Origin: Spirosoma fluviale
GTDB taxonomy: Bacteria > Bacteroidota > Bacteroidia > Cytophagales > Cyclobacteriaceae
DNA: 64,000 bases
Direction: 5' to 3'
NCBI GenBank assembly: GCA_945901615.1
Contig: CAMDLI010000005.1
Location: 1 to 64,000 of the forward strand
The notes beneath the pieces were generated by a model. It saw only the letters and a list, made by a program, of their open reading frames with translations, was not told the origin of the DNA and did not search any database. Below are positions 777 to 7,758 of this stretch, one piece after another. Each line of letters begins with the position of its first letter. Positions within the stretch are counted from its first letter, which is position 1. The position numbers and the translations under genes were made by a program.

Positions 777-1550
777 CTAACCAATAACTCCTTGAATGAA
801 GGAATTGATGTCCCGATTCAGGTCAGTTGAATTAGTAATATTCTTGATAAATGCGGATCCAATGATCGCTCCTTGACTATAGTGCGAGGCGAGTTGGAAG
901 GTAGCTGCATCCGAGATTCCGAATCCAATCAACCTAGGATGGGTCAGATTCATATTCGCTACCCGCTCAAAGTACTGCTCCTGCTCTGGAGAAATCTCAG
1001 CCTTGGCTCCAGTAATTGCATGGGAGGATACCATGTAGATAAATCCATTGGAGTTTTCATCCACTTCTCGAATTCGCTTCTCGGAAGTTTGAGGAGAAAT
1101 TAGGAAGCTAATAAACAGCCCATACTCCTCAAAAAGGGACTTGTACTCCTCCAGATACTGGCTCATGGGTAGGTCTGGTAGAATCAGTCCATCAATGCCT
1201 ACCTCCTTGCATTTTTTGCAAAACTCCTCCTCCCCAAACTGGATGATTGGATTGAGATAACCCATGAGAATTACGGGAACATGAATTTTGGATCGGAAGC
1301 CCACCAATTGGCTGAAAAGGGTTTTGATACTCATTCCATTTTCCAAGGCTTGGGTATTGCTTTCTTGAATGGTCGGCCCGTCTGCAATCGGATCAGAATA
1401 CGGTATTCCGAGTTCAATGATATCCGCTCCAGCTGCTTGGATGGCTTCCATCACGGGTAGCGTATCCTCTAGGTTCGGGAAGCCTGCCGTCACATAGATG
1501 GATAGCACCCGCTCTTTTTTGGTTTGAAATAAATAGTCTATTCGATTCAT
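777..1550 (-). CDS. trpA: Tryptophan synthase alpha subunit
   Basis: ORF 777..1673; natural start is probably the internal Met at 1550 (MNRIDYLFQTKKERVLSIYVTAGFPNLEDT). Contains GIPYSDPIADGPTIQ typical of TrpA; last gene of the trp operon. Confidence 0.95.
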   Translation of the reverse strand: MNRIDYLFQTKKERVLSIYVTAGFPNLEDTLPVMEAIQAAGADIIELGIPYSDPIADGPTIQESNTQALENGMSIKTLFSQLVGFRSKIHVPVILMGYLNPIIQFGEEEFCKKCKEVGIDGLILPDLPMSQYLEEYKSLFEEYGLFISFLISPQTSEKRIREVDENSNGFIYMVSSHAITGAKAEISPEQEQYFERVANMNLTHPRLIGFGISDAATFQLASHYSQGAIIGSAFIKNITNSTDLNRDINSFIQGVIG

Positions 1551-1605
1551 AAGATCAATGCGTAGTTGAAAAGGGATGGGTAGCGATTCTTCAGAGCGCC
1601 TCCTT

Positions 1606-2808
1606 TTAATAATTTCCCCATTGGATGTAGGTTTCCAAATCCTTATCACCTCTTCCGGAAAGGTTGATGACAATAAGGTCGTTTGGATTAAATGAGATTT
1701 GATTCAGGGCATGGATGGCATGGGCCGTTTCGATGGCAGGAATAATCCCTTCTGTTCTGCTGAGTAAAATACCTGCTTTCATCGCATCCTCATCCTCTAC
1801 TCCAACAAACTCCGCCCGTCCAATTTCATGCAAATGGGCATGCACCGGACCTATCCCAGGGTAATCCAGGCCTGCAGAAATGGAATGTGGTTCAATCACT
1901 TGACCATCTTCAGTTTGCATCAACAAGGTTTTTGAACCATGTAAAATCCCCGGAGTACCCAACACGGAGGTGGCAGCAGATTTGCCGGAATGAATCCCAT
2001 GCCCCGCTGCCTCCACAGCAATCAATCGCACTGAAGACTCATTGTAATAATGGTAAAATGCTCCTGCCGCATTGGAACCCCCTCCTACACAAGCAATCAC
2101 GAGGTCTGGGTTTTCCCTGCCTTCTTTTGCCTTCAGCTGCCATTTGATCTCTTCCGAGATGACGGACTGAAATCGTGCCACCATCTCCGGATAGGGATGA
2201 GGGCCCACCACCGAACCGATGATGTAATGCGTGCCCACTGGATCCGCGATCCAAGCTCGCATAGCCTCGTTGGTAGCATCTTTTAGGGTCTTTGAACCCG
2301 AAATCGCAGAAACTACCTTGGCACCAAGAATTCGCATGCGCTCCACATTTGGGCGCTGACGCTTGATGTCCAGTTCACCCATGTAAATGGTACAATCCAT
2401 GCCCATCAAGGCACAGACGGTAGCAGTAGCAACCCCATGCTGTCCCGCTCCAGTCTCAGCGATGATGCGTTTTTTGCCTAGCTTCTTCGCTAGGATAATC
2501 TGCCCTACGGTATTGTTGACCTTGTGCGCTCCCGTATGACAGAGGTCTTCCCGCTTGAGGTATATCTTAGCTCCAAATGTTTCTGAAAGTCTAGCTGCAA
2601 GGTAGAGTGGCGTAGGTCGTCCCACAAAGTCCTTGAGCAAACTTTGAAACTCTTCTTGATAGGTCGGGCTTGCCACAATTGCTTCCCAGTTTTCTCGGAG
2701 CTCCTCCACATTCGGATACAACATCTCGGGGATGTAGGCACCTCCAAAACTTCCATAAAATCCTTTTTCGTCAACTTGTATCATCTTCTCGCTAGTTATC
2801 GTCTCCAA
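1606..2808 (-). CDS. trpB: Tryptophan synthase beta subunit
   Basis: 400 aa; [24 protein letters not shown] (PLP lysine), GGGSNAAG. Confidence 0.97.
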
Positions 2809-2818
2809 TTGGTAGACC

Positions 2819-3460
2819 TTATCTGTTCAACTTTTGTTTAAACTCCTTCAAATCAGGAATGTATTTTAGCCCTGGGGCAATTTCAAAACCAGAGTTGACA
2901 TCCACTCCCAGCAGCTGCGGAATATCCTTGCTCAACTCTAAAATTTCAGCTGCATGCTCCAACCGCAATCCTCCACTGAGGAAAAAACCTTTTTCAAAAG
3001 GATACCCTTTCAAGAGTCCCCAATCAAATGTTTTTCCTGACCCTCCCCTGCTGGCAGTAGCCGTATCAAATAGAAATCGATCTACATGGGGAACAAATTC
3101 TTCCATCAATTTCCAGTCTAGATTCTCCCCAACGCCAAAAACCTTCCAAATTTCTAAGTCGGTTTCGTCCTTCAGTTGCTTTGCCACCTCCATAGATTCC
3201 CCTCCATGCAGCTGCAGAGCCGAAAGGCCAAATAAGGTGGCTTTGCGACGTATTTCCGACTGGTCCTCCCCTACGAAAACGCCCACTTTTTTTAGTGGCA
3301 GGTCAATTAACCATTCGGCGCTTTCAGAAGGTGCCAGTCGAGGGGATTTGGAGTAGAAAATCAAGCCCATCCAATCTGGATTCACTTCTTGGGCCAATTG
3401 AAGACAATTGGCTTGATCCCGCATGCCGCAAACTTTAATTTCCATGCCCTGCTTATCCAC
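2819..3460 (-). CDS. trpF: Phosphoribosylanthranilate isomerase (start may be the internal Met at 3445)
   Basis: [17 protein letters not shown]..., [14 protein letters not shown]; located between trpC and trpB. Confidence 0.95.
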
Positions 3461-4271
3461 TTTGATCCCCCATCAATCGTCTAAACTCCAAGATAAAGTC
3501 CATTGCTGCCTGCTCCGGACTGGAGGTTTTCATGAAGTTTTCTCCAATCAAGAAGCCATCGAATCCAGCCTTTCGGAAAGACAACAAAGTAGCTGGATCC
3601 GAAATTCCACTTTCTGAAATTTTGACTACCTGGTTTGGAATACGATCCACCAGCTCTAGGGAAGTGTCCAAAGACACCTCAAAGGTCTTTAGGTTTCGGT
3701 TGTTGACACCGACCACATCGAGGGGCTCACAAAACGACTGTTCCAACTCCTCCAAATTATGCACTTCCATCAGCACCTCTAGTCCAAGACTTTGGGCAAA
3801 GGTGGCCAAGGAGTTGACTTTTGCAGGGGATAAAGCAGCGGCAATCAGTAAAATGCAATCGGCACCCATGGCTTTGGCTTCCAGGATTTGGTACTCATCC
3901 ACCACAAAGTCCTTTCTTAAGATCGGGATAGACACCTGTTTTCTAGCCAACTCAAGATCCGCTGTAGATCCTCCGAAGTAGTCCTGATCGGTTAGGACTG
4001 ATAGCGCGGAGGCACCTGCCTGCTCGTATCCCTTGCACACAACCTCCACAGAGGAGATGCCGTTGATTAACCCCTTGGAGGGAGATTTTCGCTTAAATTC
4101 AGTGATGATCCCCGACTTGGTTGGGTCGAGTAGAAATGATTTTAAGGAAAGTGGAGTTCTTGAAAAAGCGCTGCTTTTTTCCAAAACGACTACAGGTCGC
4201 TGCTGCTTTCTTGCTTCCACTTCCAGGTACTTATCGGCAATGATTTTTTCTAGCGTATTCATCAGGAGCAA
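3453..4271 (-). CDS. trpC: Indole-3-glycerol phosphate synthase
   Basis: ITEFKRKSPSKG, SVLTDQDYFGGS, LRKDFVVDEYQI, GVNNRNLKTF, SESGI motifs. Confidence 0.97.
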   Translation of the reverse strand: MLLMNTLEKIIADKYLEVEARKQQRPVVVLEKSSAFSRTPLSLKSFLLDPTKSGIITEFKRKSPSKGLINGISSVEVVCKGYEQAGASALSVLTDQDYFGGSTADLELARKQVSIPILRKDFVVDEYQILEAKAMGADCILLIAAALSPAKVNSLATFAQSLGLEVLMEVHNLEELEQSFCEPLDVVGVNNRNLKTFEVSLDTSLELVDRIPNQVVKISESGISDPATLLSFRKAGFDGFLIGENFMKTSSPEQAAMDFILEFRRLMGDQSG

Positions 4272-4272
4272 C

Positions 4273-5283
4273 TTAGTTAAAGGAAACTGAGGTTTGGGGT
4301 TGGATCAATCCAGTAAAGACCCGGAGGGCTTTGCCAGTCAGTAGGGTTTCTTTGGCCAAGTCAATTGCTTCTTCAAAGCCAAGCCCTTCACGAGCCGTTA
4401 CCAATGCAGCAGCGGCATTGGCAATCACTACTTGGTTTTGAGCAGAGGTACCTTTGCCTCGAAGCACTTCTTCAAAGATTTGGGCAGATTCGGCAATGGA
4501 GGTTCCTCCCAAAATGCTATCTGGAGAAAGTTGCTCCAAGCCAAGGCCTTGGGGGTGGTAGAGTTTCTCACCTGTGTTGGTGATCATTTTAAAGGGTCCA
4601 GTGAGCGATATCTCATCGTAACCATCTAGGGCATGTAAGATCGCAAATCGGCCCTCGGTCTCTTGATAGAGATAGCCATACAATCGAGCCAGTTCCAAGC
4701 TAAACACGCCCACCAGTTGCTTGCGGGGAAAACTTGGGTTGACCATGGGTCCGAGCATGTTGAAAAAGGTCTTTACTCCGAGTTCCTTTCGGATAGGAGC
4801 CACACTTTTCATGGCAGGGTGGAAAAGCGGGGCATGCAGAAAGCAGAGTCCCACTTGATCCAAACTGCGTCGCAGCTGGTCGGGATCTGCGCTAAACTCG
4901 TATCCAAAATGGGCCAGCAAGTTGGAGGAACCACAAATAGAGGACACGCCCGTATTGCCGTGTTTGGCCACTGCCTGTCCAGCTCCCGCAACGATAAAGG
5001 AGGAAAGCGTAGAGATATTGAAGGTGTCTTTGCCATCTCCACCCGTACCGCAGAGGTCCATGGCATCGTATTCGGAAAGGTCTACCGGTACGCAAAGTTC
5101 AAGCATCGCTTCCCGGAAGCCACGCAGTTCCTCCACCGTAATGCTGCGCATTAGGAATACGGTCATAAAGGCAGCCACCTGGCTGCTGGGGTAAGACCCT
5201 GTAGCCAAGTTTTTCAAGACTTCTTTCGCCTGCTGTTGAGAGAGCGTCTTGTGTGTAATGAGGTGATTTAATATGTCTTTCAT
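4273..5283 (-). CDS. trpD: Anthranilate phosphoribosyltransferase
   Basis: DLCGTGGDGKDTFNIST, KHGNTGVSSICGS; start assigned to Met at 5283 (MKDILNHLITHKTLS); longer ORF to 5316 available. Confidence 0.95.
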   Translation of the reverse strand: MKDILNHLITHKTLSQQQAKEVLKNLATGSYPSSQVAAFMTVFLMRSITVEELRGFREAMLELCVPVDLSEYDAMDLCGTGGDGKDTFNISTLSSFIVAGAGQAVAKHGNTGVSSICGSSNLLAHFGYEFSADPDQLRRSLDQVGLCFLHAPLFHPAMKSVAPIRKELGVKTFFNMLGPMVNPSFPRKQLVGVFSLELARLYGYLYQETEGRFAILHALDGYDEISLTGPFKMITNTGEKLYHPQGLGLEQLSPDSILGGTSIAESAQIFEEVLRGKGTSAQNQVVIANAAAALVTAREGLGFEEAIDLAKETLLTGKALRVFTGLIQPQTSVSFN

Positions 5284-5300
5284 CGTTGAATGGAGATCAT

Positions 5301-5867
5301 TTAGGATTGAAGCCAATTTTGGATCAACTGGGATCCGTGTTCCGTGAGGATACTTTCGGGGTGAAATTGAAGCCCTCTGAGGTCAAATTGCTTGTGGCGA
5401 ATTGCCATAATTTGTTGGTCAGGGGTACGGCCGATCACCTCCAATTCAGCGGGGAGATGCGCCTCATCTACTACCCAAGAATGGTAGCGGCCTACGGCAA
5501 ACTGGCTGGGTAGTCCGGCAAATAGTCGATCGGGAACTACCGTAAGCGTGTCTGCTACCCCATGCTGCACTTCTGCTAGGTTGTGGAGCTTTCCACCGAA
5601 GGCCTCGGCAATGGCCTGATGGCCCAAGCAAATTCCGAGTATGGATTTGGTTGCCTTGTAGCGTTGCAATAGGGCAGGCATCAGCCCTGCTTCCTCAGGA
5701 ATACCAGGTCCTGGAGAAAGGAGTATTTTATCGAATTGTTCCACCTCATCGAGGGCAAAGGCATCGTTTCGACGGATGTCCAATTGCTCCCCATAACCCA
5801 GTTGACGGATCAGGTACACCAGATTGTAGGTGAAGGAATCGTAATTATCTAGGACTAAGATTTTCAT
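5301..5867 (-). CDS. trpG: Anthranilate synthase component II (glutamine amidotransferase)
   Basis: LVLDNYDSFTYNLV, LSPGPGIPEEAG, GICLGHQAIAEAFGG, QFHPESILTEHG. Confidence 0.96.
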   Translation of the reverse strand: MKILVLDNYDSFTYNLVYLIRQLGYGEQLDIRRNDAFALDEVEQFDKILLSPGPGIPEEAGLMPALLQRYKATKSILGICLGHQAIAEAFGGKLHNLAEVQHGVADTLTVVPDRLFAGLPSQFAVGRYHSWVVDEAHLPAELEVIGRTPDQQIMAIRHKQFDLRGLQFHPESILTEHGSQLIQNWLQS

Positions 5868-5878
5868 GGACGCATCGC

Positions 5879-7288
5879 TTAAATCTGTTCGGCTGTCTTC
5901 AAGGCCACGCGCAAGGCTTCCAGTTTATTGGCTACTTCTTGCAATTCAGAGTGGATGTCACTTTTGGCAACTACGCCGGCACCGGCTTGAAACCGAAGCT
6001 GGTTATTTTCCGATACAAAGGAGCGGATGACAATGGCATGGTTGAAGTCCCCATTGAATCCCAGGTAACCGATCGCTCCTCCATAGAATTGACGGGGCAC
6101 TGTTTCCAGTTCGTCAATCAGTTCCATGGCTCGGTACTTTGGTGCGCCGGAAAGGGTTCCTGCCGGAAAGGTATCCGCAACTAATTGTAGGGGATTGGCT
6201 CCTTCGGGTAGCTGACCGGTTACTTTGGATACCAAATGGATCACGTGGGAGTAGTATTGCACTTCCTTGAAGACCTCCACTTCCACCCGATCGGAAGTAC
6301 GGGAGAGGTCATTTCGTGCCAAATCCACGAGCATCACGTGCTCTGCATTTTCCTTAGGATCGTCGTAAAGCTTGCGAGCAAGGGCTGCATCCTCCACATC
6401 GTTGCCGGTGCGGCGGAAAGTTCCCGCAATCGGAAATAGGGTTGCCTTTCGATTTTTAACCACAATTTGAGCTTCGGGGGAACTTCCAAAGACCTTGAAG
6501 GATCCGTAATCAAAATAGAACAGGTAGGGCGAGGGATTGACCGAGCGAAGTGCGCGATAGACGTTAAATTCGTCCCCTTTGAAGGCTGTGGTAAATCGCC
6601 GAGAGAGCACCAGCTGAAACACATCTCCACGCTGGCAATGCTTCTGGGCTTGGGCTAAGAGTTCCAAAAACTCTGCATCGCTGTAGTTGGACACTTCCTC
6701 CCCTACCTTTTTGAAGGAGTAGGCAGGAATGTTTTTGTTGTTGAGCAAGGTCTCGATTTCATCTAGGTAGGATGCCTGCTTAGTGCCTTCCACCAGATGT
6801 TCGAAGAGGTGCAGTTCGTTTTTGTAATGATCCACCACGATGATGTTTTGGTACATGGCATAGTGCATCATCGGCACATCAACGGAAGGGGAAGCTTTCA
6901 ATTTGATGTCCTCAAACCAGCCTACTGTATCGTACTGGGTGTAGCCAAAAAGCCCGTTTGTACTAAATTTAAAGGAGTCAGGAGGAGATTGAAAGGAATT
7001 TCCGAATCGTTGCAGGCAATCCATCAAGGGTTGTTCAGCGCTCACTTCGTAGGATTTCTCCTTTCCATCGGGCAATTTCTCCAGCACTGTACCTGCTGTA
7101 AATGAAAAAGAAGCGACTGGATTGAAGCAAATGTAGGAGTAGCTATTGTCTTGTCCTCGGTAGTCAGAGGATTCCAGCAAGATGGGATTGGCGAAGCGAT
7201 CACGAATCTGCAGGTATATGCTTACAGGTGTGATGATATCTGCGAGTCGCTTTCGGTACTGGGTATGGAGGCTGTAGGTCGTAGTCAT
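5879..7288 (-). CDS. trpE: Anthranilate synthase component I
   Basis: 469 aa chorismate-binding enzyme: LVDLARNDLSR, PAGTLSGAPKYRAMELIDE, YGGAIGYLGF. Confidence 0.96.
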   Translation of the reverse strand: MTTTYSLHTQYRKRLADIITPVSIYLQIRDRFANPILLESSDYRGQDNSYSYICFNPVASFSFTAGTVLEKLPDGKEKSYEVSAEQPLMDCLQRFGNSFQSPPDSFKFSTNGLFGYTQYDTVGWFEDIKLKASPSVDVPMMHYAMYQNIIVVDHYKNELHLFEHLVEGTKQASYLDEIETLLNNKNIPAYSFKKVGEEVSNYSDAEFLELLAQAQKHCQRGDVFQLVLSRRFTTAFKGDEFNVYRALRSVNPSPYLFYFDYGSFKVFGSSPEAQIVVKNRKATLFPIAGTFRRTGNDVEDAALARKLYDDPKENAEHVMLVDLARNDLSRTSDRVEVEVFKEVQYYSHVIHLVSKVTGQLPEGANPLQLVADTFPAGTLSGAPKYRAMELIDELETVPRQFYGGAIGYLGFNGDFNHAIVIRSFVSENNQLRFQAGAGVVAKSDIHSELQEVANKLEALRVALKTAEQI

Positions 7289-7305
7289 GGAAGAGAAAAG
7301 GGCAT

Positions 7306-7341
7306 AAAAAAAGGCTTACCGGGAAAACCAGTAAGCCTTTT
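7306..7341 (-). terminator. trp attenuator terminator hairpin
   Basis: Transcript strand: AAAAGGCUUACUGG-UUUUC-CCGGUAAGCCUUUU followed by a U run (14 paired positions including one U-G); ends about 17 nt before the trpE start codon. Confidence 0.92.
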
Positions 7342-7362
7342 GAGGTATGTATTGCGCAAAGT

Positions 7363-7440
7363 TTAGGCAACGGCTTTCTGAGCTTTCCCGAGGAAAGAAA
7401 TAGAATGCCACCACCAGTATTTGTTTGCGATTGTTTTCAT
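7363..7440 (-). CDS. trpL: trp operon leader peptide MKTIANKYWWWHSISFLGKAQKAVA
   Basis: Manual minus-strand translation of 7440..7363 gives a 25-aa ORF with three consecutive Trp codons, immediately upstream of the terminator hairpin and trpE. Too short for the ORF track. Confidence 0.92.
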   Translation of the reverse strand: MKTIANKYWWWHSISFLGKAQKAVA

Positions 7441-7450
7441 TAGCTTGGGA

Positions 7451-7479
7451 CAAATTTAGAAAGGCTTTGGAATAAGCAA
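7451..7479 (-). promoter_or_regulatory. Candidate Bacteroidota-type promoter of the trp operon
   Basis: Minus strand TTG-N18-TAAATTTG (matches TAnnTTTG -7 element; -33 TTG spacing 18 rather than the common 19). Confidence 0.6.
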
Positions 7480-7530: not shown

Positions 7531-7758
7531 GTGGCAAAAGCAATTTCACAGTACTTCAAACGAATTTTTGACGACTACCAAGTTTTGGTGATGATCAACC
7601 CGCAGGATTTTTCTGGGGTAGAACTGATTGTACATCCCGATGGGAAAATCGAAAAAACAGCGATCGAAGGTGATGAAGAGATTTTTGAGGATCTTAAAGC
7701 CGATGAGTTCAAGCCCTGCAGTGCCTTGGAGTTTCAACTCCTGCTGGCAAAAGCCTAA
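7531..7758 (+). CDS. Conserved small hypothetical protein
   Basis: 75-aa acidic ORF, GTG start, protein-like composition; no family recognised. Confidence 0.65.
   Translation: MAKAISQYFKRIFDDYQVLVMINPQDFSGVELIVHPDGKIEKTAIEGDEEIFEDLKADEFKPCSALEFQLLLAKA

Follow-up and report, generated by a model that had tools for sequence, protein, structure and literature searches.

A probable tryptophan attenuator of the Bacteroid-trp kind ahead of trpE in an Algoriphagus-like Cyclobacteriaceae genome

The stretch of DNA analysed here, 64,000 nucleotides long and called the window below, very probably carries a ribosome-mediated tryptophan transcription attenuator of the Bacteroid-trp kind. The candidate element lies on the minus strand 17 nt before trpE (5879–7288, minus strand, ATG at 7288), the first gene of the operon it would control, and trpE is followed on the same strand by tightly packed trpG, trpD, trpC, trpF, trpB and trpA (777–5867). 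The downstream genes match the trpE, trpG, trpD, trpC, trpF, trpB and trpA models, and the operon, trpEGDCFBA, is complete. The host is an aquatic bacterium, an Algoriphagus-like Cyclobacteriaceae MAG that is closest to other MAGs of the Cyclobacteriaceae and to species of Algoriphagus. Such attenuators are already described for the phylum as the family Bacteroid-trp (Rfam RF01692; Weinberg et al. 2010, PMC2864571, table entry), which has also been discussed for Flavobacterium psychrophilum (PMC6414381), and the novelty of the finding is low. What we observe directly is the sequence, its alternative structures, and the conservation and co-variation of these structures. The original prediction had read the region as a ribosome-mediated Trp attenuator, and this reading is supported by Trp codons in all related loci, covariation in the terminator, co-evolution of the two antiterminator strands and the trp operon downstream.

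The leader peptide ORF, MKTIANKYWWWHSISFLGKAQKAVA, was proposed at 7440–7363 on the minus strand with three adjacent UGG codons, and both the coordinates and the sequence are exact. The putative sensor, the three adjacent Trp codons UGGUGGUGG (7408–7416, minus strand), is nearly invariant in the alignment. We gathered 80 related trpE loci by similarity (81 loci are counted for the promoter and the Trp-codon hairpin below), and all 80 have two or three adjacent Trp codons in a short leader ORF, with the UGG run 124–250 nt before the matched trpE start. Of 80 trpE upstream regions sampled across the order, from 18 families, 55 have a Trp-run leader with a terminator after it, compared with 0/80 on the opposite strand and 0/80 after shuffling. 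Across the order the Trp run is the sole conserved part of the leader peptide, while its length and the rest of its sequence vary freely. This pattern fits codon-based and not peptide-based sensing.

Segment 1, the 5′ arm of the hairpin 1:2 (7407–7415, minus strand), lies over the Trp codons, and its partner is the 3′ arm GCCGUUGCC (7366–7374, minus strand). The pause-type hairpin of the original prediction, formed by 7415–7407 and 7374–7366 over nine positions of which four are G-U, is confirmed by the pairing (9/9 positions) and by the unforced minimum-energy fold, where it appears with a mean pair probability of 0.96. Of 81 species, 43 have a 3′ arm that is complementary at all nine positions, compared with 1.75% of shuffles, and 94% of the cells of the helix are paired in register, compared with 29–70% when the register is slid. 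Variation in this arm is mostly C/U opposite G and A/G opposite U, and pairing is preserved at most positions. Two-sided change is impossible in this helix because its 5′ arm consists of the Trp codons themselves, and our first partner-swap test of 1:2 carries no information, segment 1 being invariant. The variation that argues for the predicted hairpin is one-sided and pairing-preserving. In Cyclobacterium, Lunatimonas, Nitritalea and one Cecembia, the ORF ends upstream of the 3′ arm and the ATTGCC/ATTGTC core of the arm is still present. The constraint there must therefore be on RNA and not on peptide. These observations bear on whether the leader could be a TnaC-like Trp-sensing arrest peptide, in which the nascent chain would stall the ribosome instead of codon starvation. 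A Trp-containing leader does stand before a Trp-related operon, and its C-terminal sequence looks conserved among Algoriphagus, but RNA pairing accounts for most of this conservation, given that the core of the arm outlives the ORF, and nothing but the WW(W) run is held in length or sequence across the order. Induction by excess Trp would also be senseless for a biosynthetic operon, and we regard an arrest peptide as very unlikely.

The intrinsic terminator (7306–7341, minus strand) has a 14-bp stem (7341–7309), a 5-nt loop (UUUUC) and a U run to 7306, which leaves 17 nt to the trpE ATG, as had been predicted to within the approximation given. Two-sided, pairing-preserving change is seen in 7 of its 14 pairs, a count as high being reached in 0 of 500 shuffles. 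A consensus fold of the whole alignment recovers the terminator and only three pairs of the 1:2 hairpin. A terminator scan missed the 7341–7309 terminator, the probable reason being that four of the U's belong to the stem. Most leaders also have an ATA-containing motif (ACATA, GATAT) a few bases before the terminator, at 7343–7350 in the window, which is possibly a pause or spacer element.

The antiterminator pairs segment 2 (7372–7391, minus strand) with segment 3 (7319–7337, minus strand), the latter comprising the terminator 5′ arm, the loop and the start of the 3′ arm. Pairing, folding and duplex tests all bear on these two segments. Proposed as about 17 bp between 7390–7372 and 7337–7320 with one bulge and one mismatch, the antiterminator is present, and a further U-G pair (7391:7319) brings it to 18 bp; the mismatch is A-A and the bulged base a U. 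None of 100 dinucleotide shuffles gives a duplex as good as 2:3 in the window, and across leaders the 2:3 duplexes have a mean of –21.1 kcal/mol, compared with –12.3 kcal/mol when segment 2 is shuffled. The pair changes wholesale between lineages, being GGGAAA/UUUCCC in the window and GUGAAC/GUUCAC in many others. A fixed-column covariation count for 2:3 gave no significant excess over shuffled pairing, the register drifting between genera. Because of this shift we replaced it with register-free tests that compare duplexes of cognate and swapped partners. Permutations as good as the cognate pairing numbered 0 of 20,000 for 12 divergent loci and 0 of 10,000 for 60 leaders of the order, phylogeny not being corrected for in either test. 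The register-free comparison thus supports co-variation of segment 2 with the terminator 5′ arm and loop. The mutually exclusive antiterminator and terminator of the original prediction are accordingly found with evolutionary support, the fixed-register count for 2:3 remaining non-significant. Of the conservation that it had proposed to look for in relatives, namely a UGG run and compensatory change in three helices, the UGG run and the changes in the terminator and, free of register, in the antiterminator are seen, and those in 1:2 are one-sided only.

The terminator is by itself the most strongly supported helix, which would fit a terminator that is constitutive or belongs to an upstream gene, with the Trp-rich ORF incidental. 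The nearest clear gene upstream, however, is a divergent GTG ORF (7531–7758, plus strand), so that the terminator serves nothing else; segment 2 co-varies with it; and the Trp-run ORF recurs in relatives and across the order at the frequencies given above and in none of the 80 regions of either control. A plain terminator is therefore an extremely improbable account of the hairpin. We return to the reading of the element as a Trp attenuator.

The leader folds better than its shuffles (z = –3.2); a single one of the 200 did equally well. In the unconstrained full leader the 1:2 hairpin and the terminator have probabilities of 0.96 and 0.97, while in an RNA that ends at segment 3, before segment 4 exists, the antiterminator reaches 0.95. 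When a ribosome is parked at the stop codon of this shorter RNA, the antiterminator falls to 0.50. We infer the following for the start site, the places that the ribosome occupies, termination and the tryptophan response. A ribosome would load at the leader AUG, very near the 5′ end of the nascent RNA. When charged tRNA-Trp is scarce, it would stall on the UGG run (7416–7408) and cover segment 1, leaving segment 2 (7391–7372) free for segment 3 (7337–7319); the terminator would be pre-empted and trpEGDCFBA transcribed. When tRNA-Trp is charged, the ribosome would reach the stop codon (7365–7363). Since this codon lies downstream of segment 2, a non-starved ribosome would translate through the segment and mask its 3′ half. 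After ribosome release, segment 2 would refold onto the Trp codons and segment 3 would pair with segment 4, with transcription stopping at 7306. For the full-length RNA with a stalled ribosome, the equilibrium gives 0.82–0.87 to the terminator and 0.11–0.16 to the antiterminator. Antitermination would therefore have to be decided kinetically, during transcription, as the decision in classical attenuation is held to be. In untranslated RNA up to 7319, pairing 2:3 also beats 1:2, which implies that shut-off without translation may be weak.

In the trpL leader of E. coli, adjacent Trp codons lie in hairpin 1:2, pairings 2:3 and 3:4 compete, and a U-run terminator precedes trpE. The window shares all of these features. 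It differs from trpL in that the stop codon of its leader is downstream of segment 2 and not between segments 1 and 2, and in having a Bacteroidota-type promoter and a predicted 5′ UTR of 6 nt. The likeness to classical enterobacterial attenuation that had been drawn thus holds for the mechanism and fails for the family: an Rfam scan of the region gave no match to the enterobacterial Trp_leader (RF00513) at E up to 10. Weak STnc180 and RsaE matches in the scan were taken as chance. T-box elements, TRAP and small-molecule riboswitches are other known ways of attenuating trp operons, and one of these sensors might act on the same terminator with the ORF secondary. We consider this extremely improbable: up to E = 10 the scan gave neither a T-box nor any riboswitch family, and the segments in competition with the terminator sit within and just after the Trp ORF.

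For the attenuator itself the comparison is with RF01692. The window scores 26.4 bits (E = 7.6) and falls short of the gathering cut-off of 49 bits, although the model aligns end to end over the leader with the AUG and Trp codons in register. Of 293 genomes from the order, only 7 exceed the cut-off, and before trpE in this one order the loci above it (L003–L009) grade into the window. As in RF01692, the element stands directly upstream of trp genes in Bacteroidota, has its short ORF with adjacent Trp codons near the 5′ end and at the AUG and hairpin positions of the model, and has the 1:2 pairing and a terminator. The difference lies in segments 2/3, which are GGGAAA..CAG.AAGCC/GGCUU.CUGG.UUUCCC in the window and GUGAAC.../...GUUCAC in many relatives. 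By the rule of Rfam the window is not a member of RF01692; judged by position, parts and graded similarity, it is best described as a diverged homologue. It also has the ORF that a leader-peptide attenuator needs, with codons for the amino acid under control. A transcriptomic study of F. psychrophilum, from the same phylum, ascribes structured 5′ leaders of amino-acid operons to leader-peptide attenuation (PMC9723704); that study has expression data, and the evidence for the window, from another lineage of the phylum, is of sequence.

A point missed in the original prediction, which had the transcript begin at 7479, is that 7479–7451 is a predicted promoter, from which transcription would start near 7446, about 33 nt later. 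A sigma-70 promoter scan addresses the wrong promoter type for this phylum, in which the sigma-A consensus is TTTG/TAnnTTTG (PMC6847099). The predicted sigma-A(Bfr) promoter consists of a –33-type TTG (7477–7479, minus strand) 18 nt before a –7 element, TAAATTTG (7451–7458, minus strand), that matches TAnnTTTG. In F. johnsoniae the last G of the –7 element is at –5 (PMC6847099). This G is at 7451 in the window, which predicts a start near 7446, some 6 nt before the leader AUG, and hence a 5′ UTR of 6 nt (7441–7446, minus strand). In 79 of 81 loci a TAnnTTTG precedes the leader ATG by 8–18 nt; predicted 5′ UTRs there are 4–14 nt and most often 6, and TTG or TTTG is found at exactly the spacing of the window in most of the 81. 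Beyond close relatives, in the order-wide sample, the promoter spacing is more variable and the exact element is often not found. Leaders as short as predicted here are uncommon in the Bacteroidota data cited: 5′ UTRs under 10 nt make up about 3.7% in B. thetaiotaomicron (PMC7366714), leaderless transcripts 5.5% in F. psychrophilum (PMC9723704) and 5′ UTRs of 10 nt or less 13% in F. johnsoniae (PMC6847099). We give even odds to the proposal that in Cyclobacteriaceae the promoter and the leader ORF are fused and the peptide would consequently be made from a near-leaderless RNA in a phylum without Shine-Dalgarno initiation, and that initiation at the 5′ end would set the ribosome-polymerase timing for the switch. 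The GTG-start ORF that diverges from the promoter region (7531–7758, plus strand) encodes 75 aa.

We built a covariance model (R1) on 41 leaders; it has strong matches in about 29 of 99 genomes of the family, usually one per genome. The weaker matches that we inspected are mostly divergent leaders before trpE; two (L111, L118) have no trpE beside them and were rejected as false positives. In families f4, f20 and f22 of the order-wide sample, a Trp-run leader was detected in only 1/8, 1/6 and 3/7 trpE upstream regions, which suggests that the leader was lost or that trp is controlled in a different way there. Two complete Trp leader and terminator units stand in series before trpE in four genera of the family (L104 in G322, L105 in G352, L106 in G278 and L115 in G336). 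One genus, from another family of the order, has a tRNA-Trp(CCA) gene between the attenuator terminator and trpE (L011:1521–1765 in G024, L012 in G040 and L117:1847–1449 in G111). These genomes have a second tRNA-Trp elsewhere, about 74% identical, so the one behind the attenuator may be a dedicated tRNA-Trp that is likewise under its control. In the papers searched there was no precedent, for a trp leader, of tandem Trp attenuators or of a tRNA-Trp gene within the trp operon. The nearest precedent among them is the tandem attenuators of Salmonella mgtCBR (PMC3641672).

These results indicate that Trp attenuation is almost universal among Algoriphagus and related bacteria and that it is common across the order, where the public model finds few of the leaders. 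The useful additions are the gap in RF01692 coverage, the evidence from co-variation, the layout of the promoter, and the variants with tandem units or tRNA-Trp. With its AUG almost at the predicted 5′ end, the leader would offer a clean system for transcription-translation coupling without Shine-Dalgarno initiation, and the tandem-attenuator and tRNA-Trp loci may serve as natural experiments on the dynamic range of the switch and on feedback.
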